Shown piece after piece: positions 14,975-27,201 of a stretch of 64,000 bases of DNA. Numbering within the stretch: the first letter of the stretch is position 1; every line of letters begins with the position of its first letter. The position numbers and the translations under genes are program-made. The notes beneath the pieces were generated by a model, which was not told the origin of the DNA, searched no databases, and saw only the letters and a program-made list of their open reading frames with translations. The DNA is from Jiangella asiatica (GTDB lineage Bacteria; Actinomycetota; Actinomycetes; Jiangellales; Jiangellaceae): the NCBI RefSeq assembly GCF_004349065.1, contig NZ_SMKZ01000009.1, positions 1 to 64,000 on the forward strand. Reading direction: 5' to 3'.

Positions 14975-17221
14975 ATGTTGAGGAGACTGTCAGGCCTGGC
15001 GACCCGGCGGCGGCGGGCGGTGCTGGTGGTCACCGTGCTGCTCGTGCTGGTCGCCGGCGTGGCGAGCAGCACGTTGTTCGGCAAGCTGTCGGCTGGCGGC
15101 TGGGACGACCCCGGCTCGGAGTCCGGCCAGGCCACCGACCTGCTGGAGGACACCTTCGGCCAGTCGCCGCCCAACCTCGCCCTGCTGGTGACCGCCGGCG
15201 ACGGAGTGGACGACCCCGCCGTGTCGGCCGCGGGCGCGGAGCTGGCGCAACGCCTGGCCGACGAGCCGCACGTCCGCGACGTCGTGTCGTACTGGACCGC
15301 CGGGCAGGCGACGCAGCTGCGCAGCGAGGACGGCGAGAAGGCGCTCGTCCTCGCGACGATCACCGGTGACGAGACCGAGGTCAACGAGCGCGTCGGCGGG
15401 CTGGCCGACGACTACGGCGGTTCGCTCGCCGACGGGGTCACCGTCGAGGTGGGCGGCTTCGCGGCGTTCTCGCACGAGCTCACCGAGCAGAGCGAGAAGG
15501 ACGTCGTCACCGGCGAGCTGATCGTCTTCCCGGTCACGCTGATCGCGCTGGTCCTGGTGTTCGGCGGGGTGCTGGCGGCGCTGTTGCCGCTGGCCGTGGC
15601 GGGTGTGACCGCGATGCTGGCGATGGGTCTGTTGTGGGTGCTGGCCGAGATGACCGAGCTGTCGGTGCTGGCGGCCAACGTGGTGACGCTGGCCGGCCTC
15701 GGTCTGGCCATCGACTACAGCCTGCTCATGGTCAACCGGTTCCGCGAGGAGCTGGCGTCCGGCCGCGAGGTGCCCGACGCGATCCGCGCCACCATGGCAT
15801 CGGCGGGCCGGACCGTGGTGTTCGCGTCGCTGACCGTGTGCATCGCGCTGGCCACGCTGACGCTGTTCCCGCTGGGCGCCATGCGCTCGCTCGGCTATGC
15901 CGGCGTGGTGACCGCGCTGCTGGCGGCGGCGGCGTCCCTGGTGGTGCTGCCGGCGCTGTTCGCGGTGCTCGGCAACAAGGTGGCGGCGACGAGGTTCCGC
16001 CGGCGGCCGGCCGGCGACGCCGCGGCCGAGAACGGCTTCTGGCACCGGCTGGCGATGTTCGTGATGCGCCGGCCCATCCCGATCGCGACCGCCGTCATCG
16101 CCGTCCTCATGCTGCTCGGCGCGCCGTTCCTCGGCATGAAGCTGGGCTATCTGGACGAGCGGGTGATGCCGGAGTCGTCGCAGTCGCGGCACGTGGCCAC
16201 CACCATCCGGGAGGAGTTCCCCTCCGGCGAGCAGGAGGCGCTGCAGGTCGTGGCGCCGTCGGCCGTCGCCGAGGCGGAGGCCGGACCGGACCCCGTCGTC
16301 GTCGACGACTACGCCGCGCAGTTGTCCGCCCTGGACAACGTGAGCCGGGTCGACGGACTCACCGGCAGCTACGTCGACGGCGCCCAGGTCGCGCCGGCCG
16401 GGCCGCAGCACGAGCGGTTCGCAGCGGGCGACGCGGTGTACTGGGTGGTCGTGCCCGACCCGGGGACCACCGACCAGACCCGGGACCTGGTGACCGCCGT
16501 CCGGGCCGCCGACGCGCCGTTCGAGACCGTGGTCGGCGGGACCCCGGCGATGGCCGAGGACTCCGACCGTGCGTTGCTGGACCGGCTGCCGCTGGCCCTG
16601 GGCGGGGTCGGGCTGGCGATGGTGGTGCTGCTGTTCCTGCTGACCGGAAGCGTGGTGCTGCCGTTCCTCGCCCTGGTGCTCAGCACGCTGAGCCTGTCCG
16701 CGACGTTCGGCGCGATGGTGTGGATCTTCCAGGACGGCAATCTCTCCGACCTGTTCGGCTTCACCGTCACCGGCACGACCATCTCGACCGTCCCGGTGAT
16801 GCTGTTCGCGCTCGCGTTCGGGCTGGCCATGGACTACCAGGTGTTCATGCTGTCGCGCATCCGCGAGGAGTACGAACGCGGCGCCTCCCCGACGGCCGCC
16901 GTCGCGCTCGGGCTGGAACGGGTCGGGCGCATCGTGACGGCGGCGGCGGTCCTGATCTCGATCGTGTTCCTGGCGTTCCTGATCTCCGACATCACCTACA
17001 TGAAGGCCTTCGGCGTAGGCCTACCGCTGGCCGTGCTGATCGACGCGACGCTGATCCGCGGAGCCCTGCTGCCGGCGGCGATGCGCCTGGGCGGCCGGGC
17101 GACGTGGTGGGCTCCCGGCCCGCTGCGCCGCCTGCACGCCCGCTTCGGCCTGCGCGAGTCGTCAGCGTCGGCCGCCGAGGACCCCGCGTCGACCGGTTCG
17201 GAGCACGCCGCCGTCAAGTGA
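14975..17221 (+). CDS. MMPL-family RND transporter
   Basis: The 748-residue protein has the MmpL architecture: a first membrane helix (about 15-35), a periplasm-side domain, a block of helices, a second outer domain and a second block. The two RND signature segments are GLAIDYSLLMVNRFREE near residue 255 and GLAMDYQVFMLSRIREEY near 620, each with the Asp-Tyr pair implicated in proton coupling. MMPL proteins export lipids, siderophores or drugs. ATG 14975 follows GGACGGAG. The gene lies downstream of the tetR gene, so it may be induced by an exported compound. The next feature is a 92-bp palindromic element. Confidence 0.9.
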   Translation: MLRRLSGLATRRRRAVLVVTVLLVLVAGVASSTLFGKLSAGGWDDPGSESGQATDLLEDTFGQSPPNLALLVTAGDGVDDPAVSAAGAELAQRLADEPHVRDVVSYWTAGQATQLRSEDGEKALVLATITGDETEVNERVGGLADDYGGSLADGVTVEVGGFAAFSHELTEQSEKDVVTGELIVFPVTLIALVLVFGGVLAALLPLAVAGVTAMLAMGLLWVLAEMTELSVLAANVVTLAGLGLAIDYSLLMVNRFREELASGREVPDAIRATMASAGRTVVFASLTVCIALATLTLFPLGAMRSLGYAGVVTALLAAAASLVVLPALFAVLGNKVAATRFRRRPAGDAAAENGFWHRLAMFVMRRPIPIATAVIAVLMLLGAPFLGMKLGYLDERVMPESSQSRHVATTIREEFPSGEQEALQVVAPSAVAEAEAGPDPVVVDDYAAQLSALDNVSRVDGLTGSYVDGAQVAPAGPQHERFAAGDAVYWVVVPDPGTTDQTRDLVTAVRAADAPFETVVGGTPAMAEDSDRALLDRLPLALGGVGLAMVVLLFLLTGSVVLPFLALVLSTLSLSATFGAMVWIFQDGNLSDLFGFTVTGTTISTVPVMLFALAFGLAMDYQVFMLSRIREEYERGASPTAAVALGLERVGRIVTAAAVLISIVFLAFLISDITYMKAFGVGLPLAVLIDATLIRGALLPAAMRLGGRATWWAPGPLRRLHARFGLRESSASAAEDPASTGSEHAAVK

Positions 17222-17250
17222 GCGCTGGTGTGTGATCGCTGCGGCCAGGG

Positions 17251-17342
17251 CGAAATGATCACGTTCAGCAGGATCACCCGAGCCTCACCATGATTGCGAG
17301 CATGGTGAGACACGAGATCTCGTGCTGAACGTGATCATTTCG
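17251..17342. repeat. 92-bp palindromic element, copy 1
   Basis: The element has perfect 20-bp terminal inverted repeats (CGAAATGATCACGTTCAG plus CA, and the complement). Inside are a 14-bp palindrome CACGAGATCTCGTG and a hairpin of CACCATG with CATGGTG. It lies between the convergent MMPL and PheRS-like genes. The reverse complement of this copy matches copy 2 (35208-35299) at 91 of 92 positions. Confidence 0.9.
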
Positions 17343-17377
17343 AGGTCCGGGGCACGGACGGATGCGGCAGAAGTGTG

Positions 17378-18550
17378 TCATTGAGGGGCCGAGGTGCCGG
17401 TGTGGAGGGCGGTGTACACGCGGTCGCGGAGGGCGTTGGCCTCGTCGCTGGTCAGGGTGCGGTCGACGGGGCGGAGGACCAGGCGCAGCAGCACGTTGTC
17501 CTGGCCGGGCCGGATGCCCAGCCGCGCCCGTGCCACCTCCGGCAGGTCCGCGTATGGCGTCGTGGACACCACGGCCACCTCCTCGACGAGGTCGGCGTCG
17601 GCGCCCAGGGCGGAGCGGACCTGGTCGCCCAGGACCTCCGCGTCCGACCCGGCCGGCACCGCCACCGAGATGTCGCGGCGGGCCGGGGGGAGGTCCGACA
17701 CCGGGTGGTACGGCTCCAGGTCGAGCAACTGCCCGGCCACCCGCGGATCGGCCGAGCGCAGGAGGCGGATGTCCGGGACGCCCTTGCGTAGCATCAGCAC
17801 CCGATCCAGCCCCATGCCCAGGGCGAGCCCGCTCCACGACGACGGGTCCAGCCCGCCGGCCGCGAGCACGTGCGGCGCCGCCAGGCCGCACTCGGCGATC
17901 TCGACCGGGCGGCCGTCGCGGATAGCCTCGACCTCGCGGCCGCCGACGGTGTACGGATGCGTCGTCACGTTCCAGCGCCAGTGCGTGCCCGGCAGCATCG
18001 CGCCGACCATTGTCGTCACGAGGTCGTGCAGGTCGTCGTGGTCGAGGCGACGGCCGCCGCGGCGCAGCAACCACAGGTCGAGCTGGTGCGGCGTGCCGGT
18101 GTGGATGCGGTCGATGGAGTCGCGGCGGTGGCAGATGCCGGGCAGTACGAGTAGGACCGGCGATGCTGACGCGCCGCCGCGAAGCGCTCCGTGAGGGGAC
18201 GAAGACGACGCCAGCCGGCGCAGCGCCGGTGGGACCCCGGCCGAGGTGTGGCTGCGCAGCATCGTCGTGTCGCTGACGTAGCGGGTGTACCGGGCGTCGC
18301 GGGAGACCGCGTCGGGCTGGTAGCCGAGGCGGTCGTAGTTGTCCTCGGTGGTGACGATGGGCCGAGACCGGGAGACCAGAACCGTGGCGCCGGTCGACGA
18401 GCCGAGTGCCCAGGCGGCATCCGACACGAGGGTCTGCAGGGCGTGCGGGCCCTGCGCGGGATCGGTGAGGTCGCGGACGGACAGCGCGTCGACCAGGGCG
18501 GCCAACGACAGCGGCTGCGGCCGCGCACTTTCAGCAACGGAGACGGACAT
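17378..18550 (-). CDS. Orphan PheRS-like class II synthetase-fold ligase with C-terminal FDX-ACB domain
   Basis: The 390-residue protein resembles phenylalanyl-tRNA synthetase but is a single short chain. Class II motifs are visible: MLRSHTS (motif 2 start), PGICHRRDSIDRIHTGTPHQLDLW (compare PheS), then EIAECGLAAPHVL and motif 3 GLALGMGLDRVLMLR with the conserved Gly-x-Gly-x-x-Arg. The last ~95 residues (YHPVSDLPPARRDISVAV onward) form an FDX-ACB tRNA-binding domain as at the end of PheT. Subsystem annotations call similar proteins PheS-related mystery ligases. It is not the housekeeping PheST. Substrate is unknown. ATG 18550 follows GAAAGG. A leader ORF and hairpins lie upstream. Confidence 0.8.
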   Translation of the reverse strand: MSVSVAESARPQPLSLAALVDALSVRDLTDPAQGPHALQTLVSDAAWALGSSTGATVLVSRSRPIVTTEDNYDRLGYQPDAVSRDARYTRYVSDTTMLRSHTSAGVPPALRRLASSSSPHGALRGGASASPVLLVLPGICHRRDSIDRIHTGTPHQLDLWLLRRGGRRLDHDDLHDLVTTMVGAMLPGTHWRWNVTTHPYTVGGREVEAIRDGRPVEIAECGLAAPHVLAAGGLDPSSWSGLALGMGLDRVLMLRKGVPDIRLLRSADPRVAGQLLDLEPYHPVSDLPPARRDISVAVPAGSDAEVLGDQVRSALGADADLVEEVAVVSTTPYADLPEVARARLGIRPGQDNVLLRLVLRPVDRTLTSDEANALRDRVYTALHTGTSAPQ

Positions 18551-18592
18551 GACCAGGCCTTTCGCGGGAAGCAACGGAGGTAAGAAGTGGCT

Positions 18593-18689
18593 CCCCCGGC
18601 CGGTCGTCCGCGAAGGGTCAGGCGTGCACACCCTCCGGGCGGCGGACGTTCGCCGACCGGGGGCTGCTAAACCAGCGCTGACCTGGCAT
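18593..18689 (-). promoter_or_regulatory. Leader with alternative hairpins (attenuator candidate)
   Basis: On the minus strand the leader ORF region contains CCGAACGTCCGCC-type stems that can pair locally (CGGCG with CGCCG) or with sequence after the leader stop: CGTCCGC (18642-18648) with GCGGACG (18605-18611), and CCCCCGG (18657-18663) with CCGGGGG (18593-18599). These pairings compete, the pattern expected of a translation-dependent attenuator. No T-run follows. Confidence 0.3.
18618..18689 (-). CDS. Possible leader peptide upstream of the PheRS-like gene
   Basis: ATG 18689 opens a 23-codon frame that ends at TGA 18620-18618, 67 nt before the ligase start. The peptide begins MPGQRWFSSPRS and ends RRPEGVHA. 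It has a Trp-Phe pair but no run of one amino acid, and no obvious ribosome binding site. It starts 11 bp after the end of the SRPBCC gene on the same strand. It is annotated only because it overlaps mutually exclusive hairpins. Confidence 0.25.
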   Translation of the reverse strand: MPGQRWFSSPRSANVRRPEGVHA

Positions 18690-18699
18690 GTGATCGAGA

Positions 18700-19149
18700 C
18701 TATCCGACGGCGAGCTGATCGGCCAGTCTGGACAGGCAGTCGTGCCAGCCCTTGAGGTGGTCGTCGCGCTGCTCCTCGGTGGGGTTGTCGCTGTGGGTGA
18801 GGACGACCTCGGTGCCGCCGTCGACTGACGCGAACGTGACGTGCACGCGGCTGGCCGGAGCGCTCTCGCCGTCCCAGGACCAGATGAAGGCCAGGGTTCG
18901 CGGCGGCCTGATCTCCCCGTAGATCCCGCGGACGCCGATGTTGTGCCCGGCCTGGAGGCCGGTGGTGCGGAACGAGAACCGACCGCCAGGACGCGGGTTC
19001 GTCTCGTAGATCGCGGCGAACGACGGCGGCCAGAACCATCCGGCCAGCCGACGCGGCTCGGTGAACATGGCGAACACGTCGTCTGGGTCGGCGTCGACCA
19101 CCAGGGAAAGTACGGCGGTGGTGGCGTCTGGTGTGGATGACTCGACCAT
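18700..19149 (-). CDS. SRPBCC (AHSA1-like) domain protein
   Basis: The 149-residue protein has the START/Bet v1-like AHSA1 pattern: LVVDADPDDVFAMFTEPRRLAGWFWP at the start, PGGRFSFR in the middle, IRPPRTLAFIWSWDG, and a C-terminal helix GWHDCLSRLADQL. Such proteins have a hydrophobic cavity; some act as co-chaperones or toxin/ligand binders, but most are uncharacterised. It starts 11 bp after the sulfatase stop on the same strand and so is probably co-transcribed with the glycosidase and sulfatase genes. No clear ribosome binding site is seen; there is no alternative start nearby. Confidence 0.85.
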   Translation of the reverse strand: MVESSTPDATTAVLSLVVDADPDDVFAMFTEPRRLAGWFWPPSFAAIYETNPRPGGRFSFRTTGLQAGHNIGVRGIYGEIRPPRTLAFIWSWDGESAPASRVHVTFASVDGGTEVVLTHSDNPTEEQRDDHLKGWHDCLSRLADQLAVG

Positions 19150-19160
19150 AGATGCGCACT

Positions 19161-20618
19161 TTAGGGCATTTGAGCCGAGCCTGACGAGGGTGTGGCCGCG
19201 GGTTCGTCGCCGAGGCCGCGTTGCACCCGGTCCAGTTCGGCGGCGAGCTCGCGCCGAACACCGTCGTACGCGGGGTCGTCGAAGACGCTGGTCAGCTCGG
19301 CCGGATCGGTGTCCAGGTCGAACAGCTCCCACTCCGGTTCGGTACGCATTGACGACGCGCCGGGCAGGCCCAGCCCGTCGCCGTAGTAATGGACGAGCTT
19401 GTGCCGCGCGGTGCGTACGCCGTAGTGCGCCGGCACGTGGTGGCTGGCGTCGAGGTGCTCCCAGTAGCGATAGTAGAGCGACGTCTGCCAGTCGTCCGGC
19501 CGGGTGCCGCGCAGCAGCGGGCGCAGGCTGCGGCCCTGCATGCGCGGGTGCGCCGGTACCTCGGCCAGGTCGAGGAAGGTCTGGGCGAAGTCGACGTTGA
19601 GGGCCAGGGCGTCGGTGGACGTGCCCGGCGCGACCTCGCGCGGGTACCGCACCAGCAGCGGCATCCGCAGCGACTCGTCGTACATGAAGCGCTTGTCGTA
19701 CCAGCCGTGCTCGCCGAGGAAGAAGCCCTGGTCGGAGGCGTAGACGACGACGGTGTCGGCGCTCAGCCCGTGCCCGTCCAGCGCGTCGAGCAGCCGCCCG
19801 GTGTTGTCGTCGATCGAGGCGACGCAGCGCAGGTAGTCCTTGATGTAGCGCTGGTATGCCCATCGGGTGCGCTCGTCGCCTGCCAGATCCGGCGGCAACG
19901 GCGCCTTGAGGTCGCGTTCGGTGAGGTCGCGGCCGATCTGCATGCGCGCCTCGCGGGCGGCACGGGAACGGCCGGCGTAGTCGTCGAACAGCGTCGGTGG
20001 CTCGGGCAGGTCCCTGCCCTCGAACAGGCCGGCATGCGCGGTGTCGGGGTCCCAGCTGCGGTGCGGCGCCTTGTGCCACAACAGCAGGCAGAACGGCCGG
20101 TTCGGGTCGCGCCGGGCGATTCGCTCCAGCGCCAGGTCGGTCAGGACCGTGGTGGTGTAGCCCTCGACGGTGCGCCGGCCGTCCGCGCTGAGCAGCTCGG
20201 GGTTCCAGTACTCGCCCTGGTCCTCCAGGATGTCCCAGCTGTCGAAGCCCTGTGGGTCGTGGCCGCCGCCGTGCCCGAGGTGCCACTTGCCGACCAGCCA
20301 GGTCTGGTACCCGGCGTCGCGCAGCAGCCCCGGGAAGGCCGGCTGGCTCGCGTCGAAGTGCGTGCTCAGCGTGCGCACGCCGTTGACGTGGCTGTAGGTG
20401 CCGGTCAGGATCGAGGCCCGGCTCGGCGCGCACAAGGCGTTGGTGCAGAACGCGGCGTCGAACCGCAGGCCGTCGGTGGCGATGCGGTCGATGTTGGGCG
20501 TGGGCATGAGGGACCGGCCGTACGCGGAGATGGCGTTCGCGGCGTGGTCGTCGGACAGGATCAGCACCAGGTTGGGAGCTGAGTGCGGGGGATGGCTCGG
20601 CGGCGTCGTCATCGCCAC
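19161..20618 (-). CDS. Type I sulfatase, cytoplasmic
   Basis: The 485-residue protein is an arylsulfatase-type enzyme. The catalytic site C63-A-P-S-R67 is the consensus for formylglycine conversion, followed by SILTGTYSH. Metal-binding Asp residues sit in LSDDHAAN (23-24), and GKWHLGH, WHKAPH and ASDQGFFLGEHGWYDKR are the other conserved blocks. No signal peptide is present, so it should act inside the cell. It needs a formylglycine-generating enzyme, none of which is in this window. The GTG start directly abuts the stop of the glycosidase gene (ATG two codons later is possible). Context suggests removal of sulfate from an imported sugar. Confidence 0.88.
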   Translation of the reverse strand: MAMTTPPSHPPHSAPNLVLILSDDHAANAISAYGRSLMPTPNIDRIATDGLRFDAAFCTNALCAPSRASILTGTYSHVNGVRTLSTHFDASQPAFPGLLRDAGYQTWLVGKWHLGHGGGHDPQGFDSWDILEDQGEYWNPELLSADGRRTVEGYTTTVLTDLALERIARRDPNRPFCLLLWHKAPHRSWDPDTAHAGLFEGRDLPEPPTLFDDYAGRSRAAREARMQIGRDLTERDLKAPLPPDLAGDERTRWAYQRYIKDYLRCVASIDDNTGRLLDALDGHGLSADTVVVYASDQGFFLGEHGWYDKRFMYDESLRMPLLVRYPREVAPGTSTDALALNVDFAQTFLDLAEVPAHPRMQGRSLRPLLRGTRPDDWQTSLYYRYWEHLDASHHVPAHYGVRTARHKLVHYYGDGLGLPGASSMRTEPEWELFDLDTDPAELTSVFDDPAYDGVRRELAAELDRVQRGLGDEPAATPSSGSAQMP

Positions 20619-22736
20619 TCAGCCTGCCACGGTGTCGGCCGGATCCGGGAGGCGCACCCGCACGGGCGCGGTCGTGCGCGCCTCCGCCCGGCCATCGGCG
20701 CCGACGGCGACGGCGAGCGGGTGGCCGGCCACCCGCAGCCCGTCGACCCGCAGCGGGAACCAGTCTCTGAACGCCGGGTCCGGCGCCACGGTGAGCGTGC
20801 CGTTCGGGACGTCCGCCGTCAGCCCGACCGCCGTCTGGAGCAGGGTGATCACCGCCGCGGCCGACCATGCCTGCGGCCGGCACGCCGCCGGATAGGCCAG
20901 TACCGGCTCGCCGGCCCGCGCGTCGGTTCCTGCGAACAGCTCGGGCAGCCGGTGGCCGAAATCCGGCGCCGCCCGCAGCAGCCCGTCGGCCAGTACCGCC
21001 GCCACCGACGAGTGCCCGTCGCGGGCCAGCCCTCGCACCGCGATCGCGGTGTCGTGCGGCCAGATGCTGCCGGCGTGGTAGCCCAGCGGGTTGAACCCGG
21101 CCGCGTCCGCGCTCATGGTGCGCAGGCCGTAGCCGGCGTCCAGGTCCGGCCGGCCCAGCCGCTCGGCGACGACGGCGGCCTCGTCGGGCCGGAGCAAGCC
21201 GGTGCCGAGCAGGTGGCCGAGGTTCGACGTGGCGGTGTCGACGGGCGTCTTCGCGCCGTCCAGCGCGATGGCCGGGAACCGGCCTTGCTCGTCGATGACC
21301 CAGAACGCCGCCGCGAACCTGTCGCGCAGCTCGGCGGCCCAGTCGCGCAGCCGCTTCGAGCCCGGCCGGCCGAACGCGTCCAGCAGCGCCGCTCCGGAGA
21401 GGGCCGCCTCGTGCGCGTAGGCCTGCGCCTCGCTCAGCGCGATGGGCGGCTCGGCGATGGACCCGTCGGGGAACTGGATGGAGTCGCCGGAGTCTTTCCA
21501 GCCCTGGTTGGCCAGGCCCGCGCCGGTCTCGTCGACGTACTCGAGGAAGCCGTCGCCGTCGGGGTCGGCCTCCTCGGTGAGCCAGCGCAGCGCCGCCTCG
21601 AGCGGGTCGAGCAGCCCGGCGACGTCACCGTCGTCGAGGCCCCAGCGCCAGGCGTCGTGCAGCAGGCAGACCCACAGCGCGGTGGCGTCGACGGTGCCGA
21701 AGTAGACCGGCGGGAGCCCGGCCGCCACGGCGGACTCGATCCGGACCTCGTGCAGGATCTTGCCCGGCGCCTGCGCGGTGCGCGGGTCGTGTCTGCGGCC
21801 CTGCCGGCGGGCCAGCGTTCGCAGGGTGCCGCGCGCCAGGTCGGTGCCCAGCGGCAGCGACAGCCGAGCCGCCCACAGCGAGTCGCGGCCGAACAGCGTG
21901 AAGAACCACGGGCTGCCGGCAGCGAGAAAGGTGTCGCCCGCAGCGAGCGGGTCGGTGAGGGCGAGCGCGGTGAGGTCGTCGACGCTCTGCCGCGCGAGGC
22001 GGGCGAGGTCGGGCCGGCCGGCGACGGTGACGGTGTCCCAGCCCGGTCCGTCGGCGGGGGCGAACGCGCCGGGGGGCGGCTCGCCGACGAACGCGACGGC
22101 GACGTCGACGGTGACCGTCCAGGATGACCGGGCGGCCAGCTCGACCGTCCACGCCAGCACGACGCCGACGGCCGCGGGCTCCAGCGCACCGCCGGGCGAC
22201 GCCGTGATGTCGACGCGCAGCCCGCCGTCGGACCACGTGACGCCGTCGTCGTGCGCCGTGACCCGCGCGCCGGTGGGGGAGTCGCCGTACTTGATCTGGT
22301 CGGTGGTGGCGAAGTCGGCGGCGAGGTGCAGCCGGACCGTCGCCGCGATCGGCCCCCGGGAGCTGTTCACCAGATGCAGCCGCTCCTGGATGCCGTCGGG
22401 CCTGGCCGTGCGGGTGCGCTCGAGCCGGACCGTGGGGTCGGCGGTCGGGTCGCCGAGGTGGCGCACGATGCCGGTGAACGTCGCGTGCCCGGCCGCGCGC
22501 AGGCCGTGGCCGGCAGGTTCGGGCTCGTGGCCGTCGACGGTGACGCGCAGTTCCGAGAGCACGCGGCGCTCGTGGCACAGCACACCCTGCGCGCCGGCGG
22601 GGCGGATCTGTCCGTCGGCGGCGGAGAGCGCGACGGTCGGCGCGTGCAGGCAGCTGACCAGCTCGTGCAGGAACGGCTGCCGGACCGGGCCGCCTGAGTT
22701 GTAACCCCAGGTGCCGGGGTCGGGTGGAGCTTGCAC
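20619..22736 (-). CDS. Amylo-alpha-1,6-glucosidase-like glycosidase (glycogen debranching N-terminal domain)
   Basis: The 705-residue protein has an N-terminal beta-sandwich domain of the debranching-enzyme type (about 30-230; SAADGQIRPAGAQGVLCHERRV) and a C-terminal (alpha/alpha)6 barrel with WFFTLFGRDSLWAARL, NQGWKDSGDSIQFPDG and NPLGYHAGSIWPHDTAIAV. The Asp in WKDSGDS and acidic residues of the last motif are the likely catalytic site. There is no signal peptide. The substrate could be an oligosaccharide rather than glycogen. GTG 22736 is chosen because GGAAGG lies just upstream; no ATG gives the domain start. It heads the glycosidase-sulfatase-SRPBCC operon and is divergent from the LacI gene. 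Confidence 0.85.
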   Translation of the reverse strand: MQAPPDPGTWGYNSGGPVRQPFLHELVSCLHAPTVALSAADGQIRPAGAQGVLCHERRVLSELRVTVDGHEPEPAGHGLRAAGHATFTGIVRHLGDPTADPTVRLERTRTARPDGIQERLHLVNSSRGPIAATVRLHLAADFATTDQIKYGDSPTGARVTAHDDGVTWSDGGLRVDITASPGGALEPAAVGVVLAWTVELAARSSWTVTVDVAVAFVGEPPPGAFAPADGPGWDTVTVAGRPDLARLARQSVDDLTALALTDPLAAGDTFLAAGSPWFFTLFGRDSLWAARLSLPLGTDLARGTLRTLARRQGRRHDPRTAQAPGKILHEVRIESAVAAGLPPVYFGTVDATALWVCLLHDAWRWGLDDGDVAGLLDPLEAALRWLTEEADPDGDGFLEYVDETGAGLANQGWKDSGDSIQFPDGSIAEPPIALSEAQAYAHEAALSGAALLDAFGRPGSKRLRDWAAELRDRFAAAFWVIDEQGRFPAIALDGAKTPVDTATSNLGHLLGTGLLRPDEAAVVAERLGRPDLDAGYGLRTMSADAAGFNPLGYHAGSIWPHDTAIAVRGLARDGHSSVAAVLADGLLRAAPDFGHRLPELFAGTDARAGEPVLAYPAACRPQAWSAAAVITLLQTAVGLTADVPNGTLTVAPDPAFRDWFPLRVDGLRVAGHPLAVAVGADGRAEARTTAPVRVRLPDPADTVAG

Positions 22737-22756
22737 CGGGTGGTCCTTCCGCGGGC

Positions 22757-22786
22757 TTGACAGAACTGGCGGGTCCGTTCTTAACT
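22757..22786 (+). promoter_or_regulatory. Promoter for the LacI-ABC operon
   Basis: TTGACA at 22757-22762 and TTAACT at 22781-22786 are 18 bp apart, close to a sigma70-type promoter. It points at the lacI gene, whose operators lie just downstream. Confidence 0.45.
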
Positions 22787-22800
22787 CTGAGCAGATCCGA

Positions 22801-22844
22801 TTTGAACGATCAAAACATGCTATCAAACGAATTTGATCGTTCAA
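22801..22844. promoter_or_regulatory. LacI operator pair overlapping the glycosidase promoter
   Basis: TTGAACGATCAAA (22802-22814) and its exact complement TTTGATCGTTCAA (22832-22844) form a 13-bp inverted repeat with a 17-bp spacer. Each arm is itself near-palindromic (TTTGA-N4-TCAAA), the usual LacI half-site plan, and ATCAAA-CGAA-TTTGAT (22822-22837) lies between. On the minus strand TTGAAC, a 16-bp spacer and TAGCAT (-10 at 22822-22817) form a promoter for the glycosidase that the sites would block. Confidence 0.7.
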
Positions 22845-22863
22845 CACGTCAGAGAGGACGTCG

Positions 22864-23904
22864 ATGGGGACACTGGAGAGCGGTGCGACGTTGGAGAGTG
22901 TCGCCGCGGCGGCCGGCGTCTCGCGGCAGACGGTGTCCAACGTCCTCAACGCTCCCGAGCGGGTGGCGCCGCAGACTCGGCAGCGGGTCCAGGAGGCCAT
23001 CGAGTCGCTGCGCTACCGGCCCAACCGCTCGGCCAGGTCCCTGCGCACCCGTACCAGCCGGCTGCTCGGCTACTGCGTCCAGCCGGCGCCCGAGGGCGCC
23101 ATCAACCCGGTGCTCGACCGGTTCGTGCACGCGCTCACCGAGTCCGCGGCCGATCACGGGTTCCACGTGCTGCTGTTCACCGCCCCGCCCGGTGCCGCCG
23201 GATTGGACCGGTACGCGGAGCTGCTGGCCCAGCGGGCCGTCGACGGGTTCGTCCTGTCCGACACGGTGGTCGCCGACCCGCGGCCGGTCTGGCTCACCGA
23301 GCAGGGCGTGCCGTTCGTCGCGTTCGGCCGCAGCTGGTCCGGGCCCGACCACGGCCGGTGGGTCGACGTCGACGGGGCCGCCGGCATCGTCGAGGCGGTC
23401 GAGCACGTGCACGCGCTGGGCCACCGGCGGGTCGCGTTCATCGGCTGGCCGGAGGGCTCCGGCGTCGGCGACGACCGGCTGGCCGGCTACCTCGCCGCCT
23501 GCTCCCGGCTCGGTCTGACCCCGCTCGTCGAACGTGACGAGGGCGGCGTCGAACAGGGGCGGGCGATCGCCGGCGCGCTGCTCGACGACCCCGAGCCACC
23601 CACCGCGTTGGTCTGCGTCAGCGACCTCTCCGCGTACGGGGCGCTGCGCGCGGTGGCCGAGCGCGGGCTACGCCCGGGCGCCGACGTCGCCGTCGTCGGG
23701 TTCGACGACACGCCTGCGGCCCGGCTGCCCGGCGTCGAGCTGACCAGCGTGTCGCAGCCGATCGAGGAGGTCGGCCGCGATGCCGTCCACATGCTGCTCG
23801 GCGCCCTTGGCGTCGTGGAGCCGCCACCGGGCCCGGCCGACCACCGGCTGCTGCGCCCGACGCTCGTCGTCCGGGCGAGCACCGCCATCTCACCGGAGGG
23901 TTGA
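22864..23904 (+). CDS. LacI-family transcriptional regulator
   Basis: The 346-residue protein has the LacI helix-turn-helix (residues ~8-30, ATLESVAAAAGVSRQTVSNVLN), the hinge helix region PNRSARSLRTR, and a periplasmic-binding-protein-like sugar-binding core ending in VAVVGFDDTPAARL and LTSVSQPIEEVG. It should bind an oligosaccharide effector and repress both its own ABC operon and the divergent glycosidase operon through the sites at 22801-22844. It is followed 2 bp later by the solute-binding protein gene. Confidence 0.93.
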   Translation: MGTLESGATLESVAAAAGVSRQTVSNVLNAPERVAPQTRQRVQEAIESLRYRPNRSARSLRTRTSRLLGYCVQPAPEGAINPVLDRFVHALTESAADHGFHVLLFTAPPGAAGLDRYAELLAQRAVDGFVLSDTVVADPRPVWLTEQGVPFVAFGRSWSGPDHGRWVDVDGAAGIVEAVEHVHALGHRRVAFIGWPEGSGVGDDRLAGYLAACSRLGLTPLVERDEGGVEQGRAIAGALLDDPEPPTALVCVSDLSAYGALRAVAERGLRPGADVAVVGFDDTPAARLPGVELTSVSQPIEEVGRDAVHMLLGALGVVEPPPGPADHRLLRPTLVVRASTAISPEG

Positions 23905-23906
23905 TC

Positions 23907-25184
23907 ATGCGTCACTTCGCGCTCACCCACTACCGAGTCCGTGCGCTGACCGCCGCCGTCGCCGCGGCCGCGCTGGTCACCGCCTGCGGCAGCAGCTACG
24001 ACGATGACGACGACGCCGCGGGGGACGGCGACGGCTCGGCGTCGGCCGGCGGCGGCTCGCTGACCGTCATGATCGGCTCGTCCGGCGAGGCCGAGACGCG
24101 CGCCGTCCAGGACGCCACGGCCCGGTTCACCGAGGAGACCGGCACGGAGGTCGAGGTCATCCCGGCGCAGGATCTCGTGCAGCAGCTGCAGCAGGGCCTG
24201 GCCGGCGGCAACCCCCCCGACGCGTTCTACGTCAGCCCGGACCGGTTCCGGATGCTCGCCGAGGGCGGCTCGCTCTACCCGTACGGCGACCGGATCGAGG
24301 ACGTCGACGACTTCTACCCGTCCCTGCGCGACGCGTTCACCTACGAGGACGAGCTCTACTGCGCGCCCAAGGACGGCGGCGTGCACGCCCTGGTGATCGA
24401 CACCGACGCGTGGGCCGCGGCCGGCCTGGCCGAGGCCGACATCCCGCGGACCTGGGACGATCTCGCCCAGGTGGCGCAGACGCTAACCACCGACGGCCGG
24501 GTCGGTCTGGCGTTCACGGGCGACTACAACCCCGTCGGCACGTTCATGCTGGCCGGCGGCGGGTTCTTCCTCAACGACGACCAGACCGAGGTCACCGCGG
24601 ACACGCCGGAGAACCTGGCCACCCTGCGGTACCTCGAGGAGAACCTGGACGCCGGGACATTCGCGTTCGCGCCGACCATCGACGCGGCGTGGGGCGGCGA
24701 GGCGCTCGGCAGCGGCAAGTCGGCGATGACCGTCGAGGGCGCGTGGGTCGTCGGCGCGCTGCAGACCGACTTCCCCGGCCGCAACTGGATGGCCGTGCCC
24801 ATGCCCGACGGGCCGGGCGGCAGCGGCTCGACGGCGTTCACTAACTGCTGGGGCATCGCGGAAGCCAGCGAGAACAAGGACGCCGCCGTCGACCTGGTGA
24901 ACTTCCTGGTCAGCGCAGAGGAGCAGCAGACGTTCGCCGAGGCGTTCGGTCCCATCCCGTCCCGGTCGAGCCTGGCGGGCTGGAACGCCGAGACGTACCC
25001 CGAGAAGGCCGCGTTCGCCGAGGGGTTGGACTCCTCGCGCAGCCAGGTCGCCGTGCCGGGCTTCGAGTCCGTCCTCGCCGACTTCAACACCCAGCTCGAA
25101 GGCATGGCCGCCGGCACCGTCACCCCGGAGCAGGCCCTCCAGGCGCTGCAGACCAACGGCGAAGCCCTCCTCGCGCAGGAGTGA
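23907..25184 (+). CDS. Sugar ABC transporter, substrate-binding lipoprotein
   Basis: The 425-residue protein has a lipoprotein signal peptide with lipobox VTAC, then a Ser/Gly/Asp-rich linker, then a family 1 solute-binding domain (DLVQQLQQGLAGGNPPDAFYVS is the MalE-type start; GKSAMTVEGAWVVGAL is the conserved later block). It delivers a sugar or oligosaccharide to the two permeases encoded next. ATG 23907 is chosen because CGGAGGG lies at 23894-23900; an upstream TTG would overlap the lacI stop. The linker is unusually acidic (five Asp in a row). Confidence 0.92.
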   Translation: MRHFALTHYRVRALTAAVAAAALVTACGSSYDDDDDAAGDGDGSASAGGGSLTVMIGSSGEAETRAVQDATARFTEETGTEVEVIPAQDLVQQLQQGLAGGNPPDAFYVSPDRFRMLAEGGSLYPYGDRIEDVDDFYPSLRDAFTYEDELYCAPKDGGVHALVIDTDAWAAAGLAEADIPRTWDDLAQVAQTLTTDGRVGLAFTGDYNPVGTFMLAGGGFFLNDDQTEVTADTPENLATLRYLEENLDAGTFAFAPTIDAAWGGEALGSGKSAMTVEGAWVVGALQTDFPGRNWMAVPMPDGPGGSGSTAFTNCWGIAEASENKDAAVDLVNFLVSAEEQQTFAEAFGPIPSRSSLAGWNAETYPEKAAFAEGLDSSRSQVAVPGFESVLADFNTQLEGMAAGTVTPEQALQALQTNGEALLAQE

Positions 25185-26281
25185 GCCCGGTGGTCGGGAC
25201 CGACATGACGGCGACGGCGACCCGGGAGCCGTCGGCGCGCGGCCACGGGTCGTCGCGCCGGCGGCGGGTTTCCGGGCACCGCCTCCAGGAACGCCGCGCC
25301 GGCTGGGTGTTCGTCGCGCCGGCTGTCGTGGTCCTCGTGGTGTTCCTGTTCGCGCCGATCGTGATGGCGGCCTGGGTCAGCCTGCTGGACTGGAACGGGC
25401 AGTCCAGCCCGTTCTCCGGCGACGCGGAGTTCGTCGGCCTGGACAACTACCGCAACCTGCTGGTCGACGCCGGCCTGCTGCGCGGCGACTTCATGCTCAG
25501 CGTGCGCAACACGCTCTACTACGTGCTGTTCGGCGTGACCGGGGTGACGGTGCTGTCGTTCGCGCTCGCGACGGCGGTCAACTCGTGGGTGCTGAAGGGG
25601 CGCGGGTACTTCCGCACGATCTTCTACTTCCCGGCCATCACCAGCTCGGTCGCGATCAGCGTGCTGTTTCTCTTCCTGTTCCAGGGCTCCGGCGTGGTCA
25701 ACGTCATGCTGTCGTGGGTCGGGATCGACGGGCCGTCGTGGTTCAACGACCCGCGCGGCGTGCTGCACATCGTGCTGTCGCGGTTCGGCATGGACGCGCC
25801 GCCGTCGTGGCTGGCCGACAACACGCTTGGCGGGCTGAGCCTGTGGCAGTGGGTGTCCGGGCCGTCGGTCGCCATGTGCGCCCTGATCGCGCTGACCATC
25901 TGGGCGTCGTCGGGCACGTTCATGCTCTTCTTCCTGGTCGGGTTGCAGGACATCCCGATCGAGCTGGAGGAGGCGGCGGCCATCGACGGCGCCGGCGCAT
26001 GGCGGCGGTTCCGGCACGTCACGCTGCCGCTGATGCGCCGCAGCGTCGTGCTGGTGATCACGCTGGCGCTGATCAGCAGCTGGCAGGTGTTCGACCAGGT
26101 GTTCATCCTGTCGCAGGGCGCGCCGGCGAAGACAACCCTGACGCCGGCGTACATCTCCTACGTGCGCAGCTTCGGTGACGGCCAGTTCGGCGTCGGCGCG
26201 GCGGTCGCCTTCGTCCTGTTCGCGATCATCATCGTGCTCACGATCGTGCAGCGCTGGATCGGAAGGGAGCGGCGCGCATGA
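25181..26281 (+). CDS. Sugar ABC transporter permease (MalF-like)
   Basis: The 366-residue membrane protein has about six helices, starting with GWVFVAPAVVVLVVFLFAPIVMAAW. The EAA loop EEAAAIDGAGAWRRFRHVTLPLMRRS near 263-290, which docks with the ATPase, is intact. It pairs with the next gene to form the channel. GTG 25181 overlaps the stop of the binding-protein gene (GTGA); an ATG nine codons in is an alternative. The N-terminal 40 residues are basic and cytoplasmic. Confidence 0.93.
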   Translation: MSPVVGTDMTATATREPSARGHGSSRRRRVSGHRLQERRAGWVFVAPAVVVLVVFLFAPIVMAAWVSLLDWNGQSSPFSGDAEFVGLDNYRNLLVDAGLLRGDFMLSVRNTLYYVLFGVTGVTVLSFALATAVNSWVLKGRGYFRTIFYFPAITSSVAISVLFLFLFQGSGVVNVMLSWVGIDGPSWFNDPRGVLHIVLSRFGMDAPPSWLADNTLGGLSLWQWVSGPSVAMCALIALTIWASSGTFMLFFLVGLQDIPIELEEAAAIDGAGAWRRFRHVTLPLMRRSVVLVITLALISSWQVFDQVFILSQGAPAKTTLTPAYISYVRSFGDGQFGVGAAVAFVLFAIIIVLTIVQRWIGRERRA

Positions 26282-27201
26282 GCGCAGTGATGGCGCGGCG
26301 ACGACGGCGACCCGCGGAGTCCGTGCCCGTCGTCCTCACCGACCGGTACTCGCCGCGGTCGCGGAAGGTCCTGGTCCGGGTCGTCGGGTACGGGCTGCTC
26401 GCCGTCGGGACCGTGCTGTACCTCGGGCCCTTCCTGGTGCAGATCGCGACGTCCTTCAAGACCGACGCCGACGCCGTCGCCGACCCGGTGTCGCTGTGGC
26501 CGTCCCCCGTGTCGACGGCGGCGTGGTCGGTCATCGCGGGCTCGAATCCGGCGTTGGACATCCCGGTGCTGCGCTGGCTCGGAAACTCGCTCTTCGTGAC
26601 CGTCTCCGTCACTCTGGGCCGACTGATCATCGACAGCCTGGCCGGCTACGCGCTCGCGCGGCTGCGCTTCCGCGGCCGGGCGATGGTGTTCGCTGGGGTC
26701 GTGGCGGTGCTGGCCGTGCCTGGTGTCGTCCTGCTGATCCCGAAGTTCCTGGTGCTCAACGAGCTGGGGATGTTCGACACCTACGCCGGTATGATCCTGC
26801 CGCTGCTGTGCGACGCGGTGGGCATCCTGCTCATGAAGACCGCCTTCGAGGCCGTCCCGACGGAGCTGGACGAGGCCGCCCGCATCGACGGCGCCGGCGT
26901 GTTCCGGACGTTCTGGAGCGTGGTACTGCCGCTGGTGCGCCCGGCCCTGGTGACGGTGACGATCCTGTCCTTCCAGGGCTCGTGGAACGAGTTCACCCAC
27001 TTCCTGGTGGCGACCTCGGACCCGGACCTGGCGACGCTGAACCTCGGGATTGCCCGGCTGACCGCCGGCGACCTCCAAGGGTCGCAGCAGTTCCCGCTGA
27101 AGCTGGCGCTCGCGACGCTCTCGACCATCCCGATCGCGATCGTCTACGTCTTCTTCTCCCGCTACTTCATGCGCTCCGGCGCCTCCTCCAGCCTGAAGTG
27201 A
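26278..27201 (+). CDS. Sugar ABC transporter permease (MalG-like)
   Basis: The 307-residue permease has six helices and the EAA loop DEAARIDGAGVFRTFWSVVLPLVRPAL near residue 200. It starts with an ATG that overlaps the previous stop (ATGA). No ATP-binding gene follows; many actinobacteria use one shared MsiK-type ATPase for several such importers, so the missing gene is not a defect. The TGA stop at 27199-27201 lies exactly where a truncated 92-bp element begins, so the last codons abut that element. Confidence 0.93.
   Translation: MSAVMARRRRRPAESVPVVLTDRYSPRSRKVLVRVVGYGLLAVGTVLYLGPFLVQIATSFKTDADAVADPVSLWPSPVSTAAWSVIAGSNPALDIPVLRWLGNSLFVTVSVTLGRLIIDSLAGYALARLRFRGRAMVFAGVVAVLAVPGVVLLIPKFLVLNELGMFDTYAGMILPLLCDAVGILLMKTAFEAVPTELDEAARIDGAGVFRTFWSVVLPLVRPALVTVTILSFQGSWNEFTHFLVATSDPDLATLNLGIARLTAGDLQGSQQFPLKLALATLSTIPIAIVYVFFSRYFMRSGASSSLK

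Follow-up and report, generated by a model that had tools for sequence, protein, structure and literature searches.

Why would a bacterium with an ordinary PheS-PheT keep a further PheRS-like gene apart from pheST, and what could its product do? The question is raised by a stretch of 64,000 nt from the Jiangella asiatica genome (contig NZ_SMKZ01000009.1, positions 1 to 64,000; hereafter the window). Here an open reading frame on the minus strand (17378..18550), with an ATG start and no internal stops, encodes a single-chain PheRS-like ligase of 390 aa. The protein scores 500.2 bits (cut-off 300) on the NCBIfam model NF051887, "PheS-related mystery ligase SrmL", matching positions 1-349 of 349. 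The family is therefore already named and remains unexplained, since the model title gives no function. What is new here is the leader upstream of srmL, its link to pheST, the links to tRNA-Phe, and the phage and plasmid copies. A literature search, with most subscription journals outside its scope, found among the papers listed no publication on SrmL or on an orphan, second or single-chain bacterial PheRS.

Architecture and pocket of SrmL

SrmL combines in one chain a PheS-type class II catalytic core (residues 67-274; 17729..18352, minus strand), detected by Pfam tRNA-synt_2d (PF01409) at 89.3 bits (cut-off 19.8), and an FDX-ACB anticodon-binding-type domain (residues 285-384; 17399..17698, minus strand). 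The Pfam FDX-ACB model (PF03147) alone stays below its cut-off, at 26.8 against 31.1 bits, and the domain is assigned with the help of a structural match. An AlphaFold2 model of SrmL, made with 58 homologues (mean pLDDT 92.9, pTM 0.90), had human mitochondrial PheRS entries as its top solved structures, over the whole chain and with Z of about 36 (340-344 residues aligned, rmsd 2.4-2.9, 26% identity). The match spans model residues 7-388 (344 aligned), C-terminal domain included, and the two domains are predicted to be arranged as in the mitochondrial enzyme. Bacterial PheS chains were matched over the core only, at Z of 22-27. Pyrrolysyl-tRNA synthetase was a poorer fold match (Z about 21). 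The initial annotation, made from the sequence alone, had read the 390-residue chain as a PheS-type core joined to a PheT-type C-terminal domain, as in mitochondrial PheRS, and Pfam and the whole-chain structural match support both points.

By model score, the window protein falls short of every PheRS family cut-off, with 108.9 bits on TIGR00469 (mitochondrial PheRS, cut-off 258.35) and 72.9 bits on TIGR00468 (PheS, cut-off 237.45). Special kinship with mitochondrial PheRS was not indicated by a tree in which the human enzyme lies nearer to PheS (2.9) than to SrmL (3.9); this tree is uninformative, being unrooted, with one human fragment and no pheS from L127-L130.

Active-site residues were read from an alignment of 58 SrmL sequences, all of which match NF051887 at E up to 0.001; L104, L120, L121 and L124 (too short), L126, L112 and several near-duplicates were excluded. 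The arginines at the motif 2 and motif 3 places, R142 and R250, are invariant, as are D144, T201 and A243 (58/58 each), while Q156 is present in 57/58 sequences, S103 in 56/58 and H101 in 55/58. At the two outer positions of the FPF loop, H and Y stand in 58/58 SrmL, where PheS has F and F in 26/26 readable sequences (7 of the 33 PheS were unreadable and left out); in the window protein the loop is H198-P199-Y200 (17951..17959, minus strand). Other pocket positions have changed from the PheS residue as well: E to D158 (57/58), G to E220 (58/58) and L to W160 (58/58). In the alignment, P154 is nearly invariant in SrmL at the place where PheRS has a Phe preceding the motif 2 H-Q. The earlier statement that class II motifs are retained thus holds, and the comparison of Phe-pocket residues that the annotation had proposed came out divided: the class II residues are kept, and FPF and some positions near it are not.

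The meaning of these changes can be gauged from solved enzymes, as far as the accessible portions of the two sources go. In bacterial PheRS, the FPF loop stacks on the substrate ring (PMC8555319, PMC12447630), and in Thermus PheRS the Phe before the motif 2 H-Q stacks on the adenine (PMC8555319). In the eukaryotic cytosolic enzyme, the FPF positions are taken by Asn and Tyr, of which the Tyr contacts and anchors Phe (PMC12447630). Because that enzyme still uses Phe, the H-P-Y loop is compatible with Phe and does not exclude it as the substrate.

SrmL is a second gene in this genome. An ordinary pheS is found on another contig (C97, 331 bits). The gene after it, of 835 aa, is taken for pheT on its position and sequence, without an HMM test in this genome. 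Among the other SrmL genomes that could be searched, pheT is present in 49/49 (47 over cut-off, 2 as split pieces), and no pheT was seen by eye among the genes neighbouring srmL in the window. It had been claimed that srmL lies apart from pheST, which is correct, and that a lack of pheST elsewhere would make SrmL the essential PheRS. The latter condition is excluded, because pheS is present in this genome and pheT in every other SrmL genome searched.

The Phe-codon leader

Upstream of srmL, on the same minus strand as all window features given in this section, lies a leader ORF of 23 codons plus stop, MPGQRWFSSPRSANVRRPEGVHA (18618..18689), which is conserved in relatives, as is its Phe codon TTT (18669..18671). 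The initial annotation makes no mention of this leader. The conserved element precedes srmL in relatives, and the peptide usually reads R/S-F-x-x-P-R/G. A strict form of this motif was found at 53/71 srmL genes and 0/467 control genes, and a slightly looser one at 55/71 and 2/467, respectively. A widened motif, set after the variants had been seen, matches 72/72 loci; with L126 rejected by eye, a Phe-codon leader is present in 71/72. The leader of L116 is of a different, Phe-rich type (...FTFGFFPTGK). The leader Phe codon is TTT in 64/71 cases and TTC in 7/71. Where the neighbouring genes offer at least 20 Phe codons (63 loci), the leader has TTT in 56, against 121/4883 (2.5%) in those neighbouring genes.

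A -10-like TAGTCT (18697..18702) stands 7 nt before the ATG of the window leader. TANNNT occurs just before the start of 56/71 leaders, compared with 54/3550 control ATG/GTG codons. From the position of TAGTCT we infer that the window transcript probably begins at the ATG and is thus leaderless. Leader ORFs of Streptomyces lividans are often leaderless, according to the available part of PMC8079986.

A covariance model (R1), built solely from 38 srmL leaders, matches the window at 18552..18680 with E 3.2e-13, and the genome holds no other match up to E 0.1; the window leader is itself among the 38. Within the element, arm A (CCCCCGGTCGG, 18653..18663), which lies in the leader ORF after the Phe codon, pairs with the downstream arm D (CCGGCCGGGGG, 18593..18603). 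Over the 38 aligned leaders, 94.7% of the A:D cells pair, and two-sided changes are seen in 6 of the 11 pairs, where shuffles gave an expectation of 2.3 (0/500). The A:B pairing inside the leader holds in 91.8% of cells, with weaker covariation than A:D. Segment C (18608..18617), which follows the leader stop codon, is complementary, with one mismatch in the window, to the ribosome-binding region of srmL (CCGCGAAAGG, 18558..18567). The C:SD duplex has a mean of -17.1 kcal/mol with the locus's own partner and -13.1 with foreign partners, and the own duplex beats the foreign median in 64/70 loci. In 52 less redundant loci, own pairing beats foreign in 46 for C:SD, 43 for A:D, 39 for A:B and 34 for B:C, while six control pairings reach 23-32; B:C thus barely exceeds the controls. 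Taken as candidates for mutually exclusive structures, the A:D and C:SD pairings are supported, A:B is supported in part and B:C only weakly. In this comparison of loci, pairings of segment B were judged by ranks alone, not by mean energies. The window leader by itself folds no better than its shuffles (z -1.35). No known RNA family could be assigned to the leader, since the two weak Rfam matches in window positions 17000-19500 both lie off it and far below their cut-offs.

The same kind of leader is not confined to srmL. R1 finds it in 17/17 SrmL genomes, one of which has a second copy lacking srmL and two a further weak match; the matches L156 and L157 (E 0.08 and 0.10) were left unclassified. 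In the Actinopolyspora biskrensis genome, a second leader element without srmL behind it lies at L155:1501-1619. Across 148 genomes of the class, R1 returned 11 leaders in the window's family, one chance-like match and one leader directly before a housekeeping pheST; it missed an SrmL genome with a diverged leader (G028). When 40 genomes of the genus with the pheST leader were searched, all 7 places at E < 0.01, in 6 genomes, were directly upstream of pheS-pheT as judged by eye (L168, L198, L199, L200, L201, L202 and L206); VNHSQRFLRPGPARCPGARRSA is one example of their leaders. Another four places in the 40 genomes, with weaker matches, were not before pheS. The weak R1 matches L169, L203, L204, L205 and L207, none of them before pheS, were set aside. 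Because a model trained on srmL leaders alone finds leaders of pheST, the element can be taken to serve PheRS genes. It is not general before pheST, since only one genus shows it clearly: an ORF search covering 31 pheS loci, a few of which had little flanking sequence, gave a clear leader only in L168, and the pheST of the window genome has none by the same search.

How the leader would act is less clear. Intrinsic terminators were found in five copies, namely the chromosomal MAG loci L108, L111 and L115, the Azotobacter plasmid and a phage. Classical 1:2, 2:3 and 3:4 segments can be made out by eye in L111 and L115. Folding simulations under three models do not show that a stall at the Phe codon switches srmL on, and three cases point in the opposite direction. 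In the first model, the ribosome-binding site of srmL is not released in the 71 leaders when a ribosome is positioned on the Phe codon: the mean unpaired value is 0.35 when stalled, 0.42 with the ribosome at the stop and 0.33 when free, and the site is more unpaired at the stop than in the stall in 37/71, with the reverse in 13/71. The second model gives a small shift in the expected direction, with 7.7 C:SD pairs at the Phe codon, 9.6 with B masked and 7.0 free. In the third, the terminator becomes more favoured on a stall in three copies, namely L111, L209 and L115, the latter two only at the longer ribosome lengths; in L108 it becomes less so (0.6 vs 0.8), and in the phage nothing changes. 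The sign of regulation is therefore unestablished, because folding fails to free the ribosome-binding site and, at most of the ribosome lengths used, favours the terminator in L209, L111 and L115. Any sign given below is inferred from analogy and from the leader use shared with pheST, where negative feedback is expected.

Distribution and linked tRNA genes

Within the window's family, SrmL is over cut-off in 21/22 genomes, the one miss being 81% complete; outside it, only 1/77 other relatives searched has the protein over cut-off. In 396 sampled Actinomycetota genomes, the cut-off was passed by the window's genome and one other, with a third just under, and among 297 genomes of the order of a Clostridiales MAG that carries srmL, only that MAG passed. 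A scan of 84,980 species genomes yielded 72 srmL loci; distant SrmL will have been missed, because two exact peptide patterns were used. The loci belong to Jiangella, Phytoactinopolyspora, Pseudonocardia, Geodermatophilus, Nocardia, Arthrobacter and others, with isolated cases in delta- and gammaproteobacterial, melainabacterial and clostridial MAGs. SrmL is carried by bacteria of several phyla, and R142, R250, Q156, H101 and S103 are kept down to 44% identity. Short or interrupted srmL frames occur in 5/72 loci (L104, L120, L121, L124 and L126), four of which keep the leader; these frames may reflect decay or assembly error.

Full srmL copies, both with the leader, are also present on two plasmids. 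The one in Glutamicibacter nicotianae lies beside a Cmx chloramphenicol efflux gene, and no resistance genes were found within 5 kb of the one in Azotobacter chroococcum. On a Corynebacterium diphtheriae plasmid (L211:2501-3124), a partial srmL match covering query residues 178-385 has erm(X) on one side and tet(65) on the other. In phages, SrmL was found in a record of 634,780 bases and in four IMG/VR viral contigs of 415-578 kb, with 416-443 bits on the family model; a further viral scan with the phage SrmL protein as query confirmed no relatives. Two IMG/VR contigs of 533 and 536 kb encode single-chain PheRS of the mitochondrial type (L216:3872-4936 and L217:3863-4906) with the motif FPFT and TIGR00469 scores of 385.7 and 345.8 bits (cut-off 258.35). 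On the SrmL model these two proteins reach 244 and 216, which is short of the cut-off.

In three places, tRNA-Phe genes adjoin srmL. The Clostridiales MAG has a tRNA-Phe(gaa) gene directly before the Phe-rich leader and srmL, and another tRNA-Phe, 86% identical over the match, in a tRNA array. By eye, the differences between the srmL-linked tRNA (L116:5718-5793) and the ordinary one lie mainly in the acceptor and T arms, and the anticodon arm is preserved. On the huge-phage contig L213, tRNA-Phe flanks srmL on both sides, and on L215 it lies just upstream with a tRNA-Val between. No tRNA-Phe was seen in the stretch examined of the other 3/5 phage copies (L210, L212 and L214), or near srmL in 54/55 bacterial loci scanned. 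In L212, 8 nt separate srmL from a preceding HisRS-like gene, and a SerRS-like gene and tRNA genes lie nearby (gene names assigned by eye). The huge phage LR745206 has a leader peptide, MNTNTTFNFFFSHKMV, followed by an intrinsic terminator; the other 4/5 SrmL-type phage copies have no clear leader.

Possible functions and known systems

The genes around srmL give little help in assigning a function. Outside the family, the gene caller called srmL in 48/59 loci and missed it in 11. In the 48, no gene keeps a set position beside srmL except among close relatives, and the widest cluster is a generic ABC ATPase (11 loci). In the stretches examined of 21 Jiangellaceae loci, the recurring genes are a CorC-type pair (19 loci), a DUF62-type gene (18) and an AfsR-like gene (14), all named by eye. 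A ValRS-like gene (cluster c22, by eye) lies a few genes downstream of srmL, past the CorC-type pair, in L046, L051, L052, L053 and L054, all of one related genus. In the window, positions 19161-27201 hold a sulfatase, a glycogen-debranching-type enzyme, a LacI regulator and a sugar ABC transporter block, again named by eye. The initial annotation had accordingly placed the gene in a carbohydrate locus, which describes the window correctly and carries no functional weight, since the arrangement is incidental and lineage-specific. The idea that SrmL belongs to this carbohydrate and sulfatase locus and serves its pathway could draw on the same-genus loci, where a sulfatase adjoins srmL in 8/12 and the glycosidase, LacI and ABC block in 11/12. 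It is scarcely tenable, however, as these genes are missing from all 9 loci of the family's other genera, where srmL is retained, and the lack of fixed neighbours farther afield speaks against it too.

The reading that we consider likely, with considerable room for doubt, is that SrmL serves as an auxiliary PheRS in a single chain, kept beside PheS-PheT: it would act on tRNA-Phe, be controlled through the supply of Phe-tRNA and perhaps tolerate inhibitors. Its PheS-type core and FDX-ACB domain would charge tRNA-Phe alongside the essential enzyme, where both catalysis and Phe as the amino acid are inferences. Progress of the ribosome over the leader Phe codon would set srmL output according to charged tRNA-Phe, if the leader regulates at all, which is likewise inferred: a ribosome held at this codon would leave an RNA structure unlike that left by one reaching the stop. 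Output would most likely rise when charging fails, as with other auxiliary synthetases, a sign that is assumed and that the folding results partly contradict. A spare or inhibitor-tolerant enzyme would also fit the patchy, solo, partly plasmid- and phage-borne distribution. The initial annotation had left two options, charging of a tRNA or activation of an amino acid for another product. We favour the former, itself inferred, because the leader has a Phe codon and some copies adjoin tRNA-Phe genes. A role in resistance is no more than a guess, based on the patchy, mobile distribution and on what surrounds one full plasmid copy and one plasmid fragment.

The same leader and tRNA-Phe neighbours point to a tRNA and not to an amino acid, which leaves room for SrmL to bind tRNA-Phe and charge it with something else, e.g. 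a polar or modified aromatic amino acid, so that Phe codons are read differently or another reaction is supplied with the charged tRNA at times of Phe-tRNA shortage. The pocket, remodelled in like manner across the family at H198, Y200, D158, E220 and W160, would agree with this. We nevertheless hold it to be unlikely, given the conservation of T201, A243 and Q156 and the cytosolic PheRS that uses Phe with Asn and Tyr at the FPF positions (PMC12447630, accessible part). Departure from tRNA altogether is harder to reconcile with the data. Many aminoacyl-tRNA-synthetase paralogues have left translation, and proteins of the EpmA/PoxA type activate amino acids without charging tRNA. A solo gene such as srmL could likewise activate an amino acid for a small molecule or a protein modification, without tRNA charging in vivo. 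But SrmL keeps the FDX-ACB domain, placed in the predicted structure as in mitochondrial PheRS; its leader is of the kind found before pheST in one genus; tRNA-Phe genes and phage tRNA-synthetase clusters accompany some copies; and conserved biosynthetic neighbours were not found, all of which makes this possibility improbable. Even more doubtful is an inactive sensor or inhibitor that binds uncharged tRNA-Phe and regulates something. The changed pocket would allow it, as would P154 in place of the Phe that stacks on adenine in Thermus PheRS (PMC8555319, available part), but R142, R250, Q156, H101 and S103 are kept across several phyla at identities down to 44%, and no partner gene is conserved.

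The auxiliary-PheRS reading offers a testable function for a family listed as a mystery ligase in a main annotation library. Beyond this, we put forward only tentatively that SrmL is one more form that PheRS takes in nature, in bacteria and huge phages: a single chain outside mitochondria, with a remodelled pocket and a Phe-codon-leader switch. As a resistance or rescue gene, it would travel by itself, on chromosomes, plasmids and phages alike, and counter some unknown natural attack on PheRS or Phe-tRNA. If the auxiliary-PheRS reading is right, monomeric PheRS would not be confined to mitochondria, a Phe attenuator would be common to pheST and the spare enzyme in some actinobacteria, and SrmL might point to an undiscovered natural PheRS inhibitor. 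A small PheRS of this sort, sometimes beside its own tRNA-Phe gene, would also be of interest for engineering tRNA charging.

Several known systems can be compared with SrmL. The accessible part of PMC3275996 describes three forms of PheRS, of which the monomeric one is mitochondrial and a chimera in which the catalytic module of alpha is joined to B8. SrmL resembles this enzyme (human FARS2) in having one chain of catalytic module and FDX-ACB/B8, matched at Z 36, and differs in its TIGR00469 score below cut-off, in HPY instead of FPF, and in being bacterial and phage-borne. Actinobacterial leader-peptide attenuators of trp, leuS, ilv and cys genes (Seliverstov 2005, seen in part) share with the srmL leader a short leader ORF and, as far as the partly supported pairings of the srmL leader go, competing RNA structures; in the available portions of Seliverstov 2005 and PMC8079986, no Phe leader of Actinobacteria was found, nor any pheS in the latter. 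Bacterial PheS-PheT (TIGR00468, TIGR00472) shares with SrmL a homologous core with the motif 2 and 3 arginines and, in one genus, a leader of the same kind. In contrast to PheS, SrmL scores under the TIGR00468 cut-off and has no adjoining beta subunit, and its length and domain matches imply that it has no room for the N-terminal coiled coil or the editing module. The auxiliary indolmycin-resistant TrpRS of S. coelicolor, taken here as the precedent, differs from SrmL in its amino acid and its enzyme class, and no inhibitor is known for SrmL; it is also a second synthetase, and it is reportedly controlled by ribosome-mediated attenuation, the kind of control suggested here for srmL.
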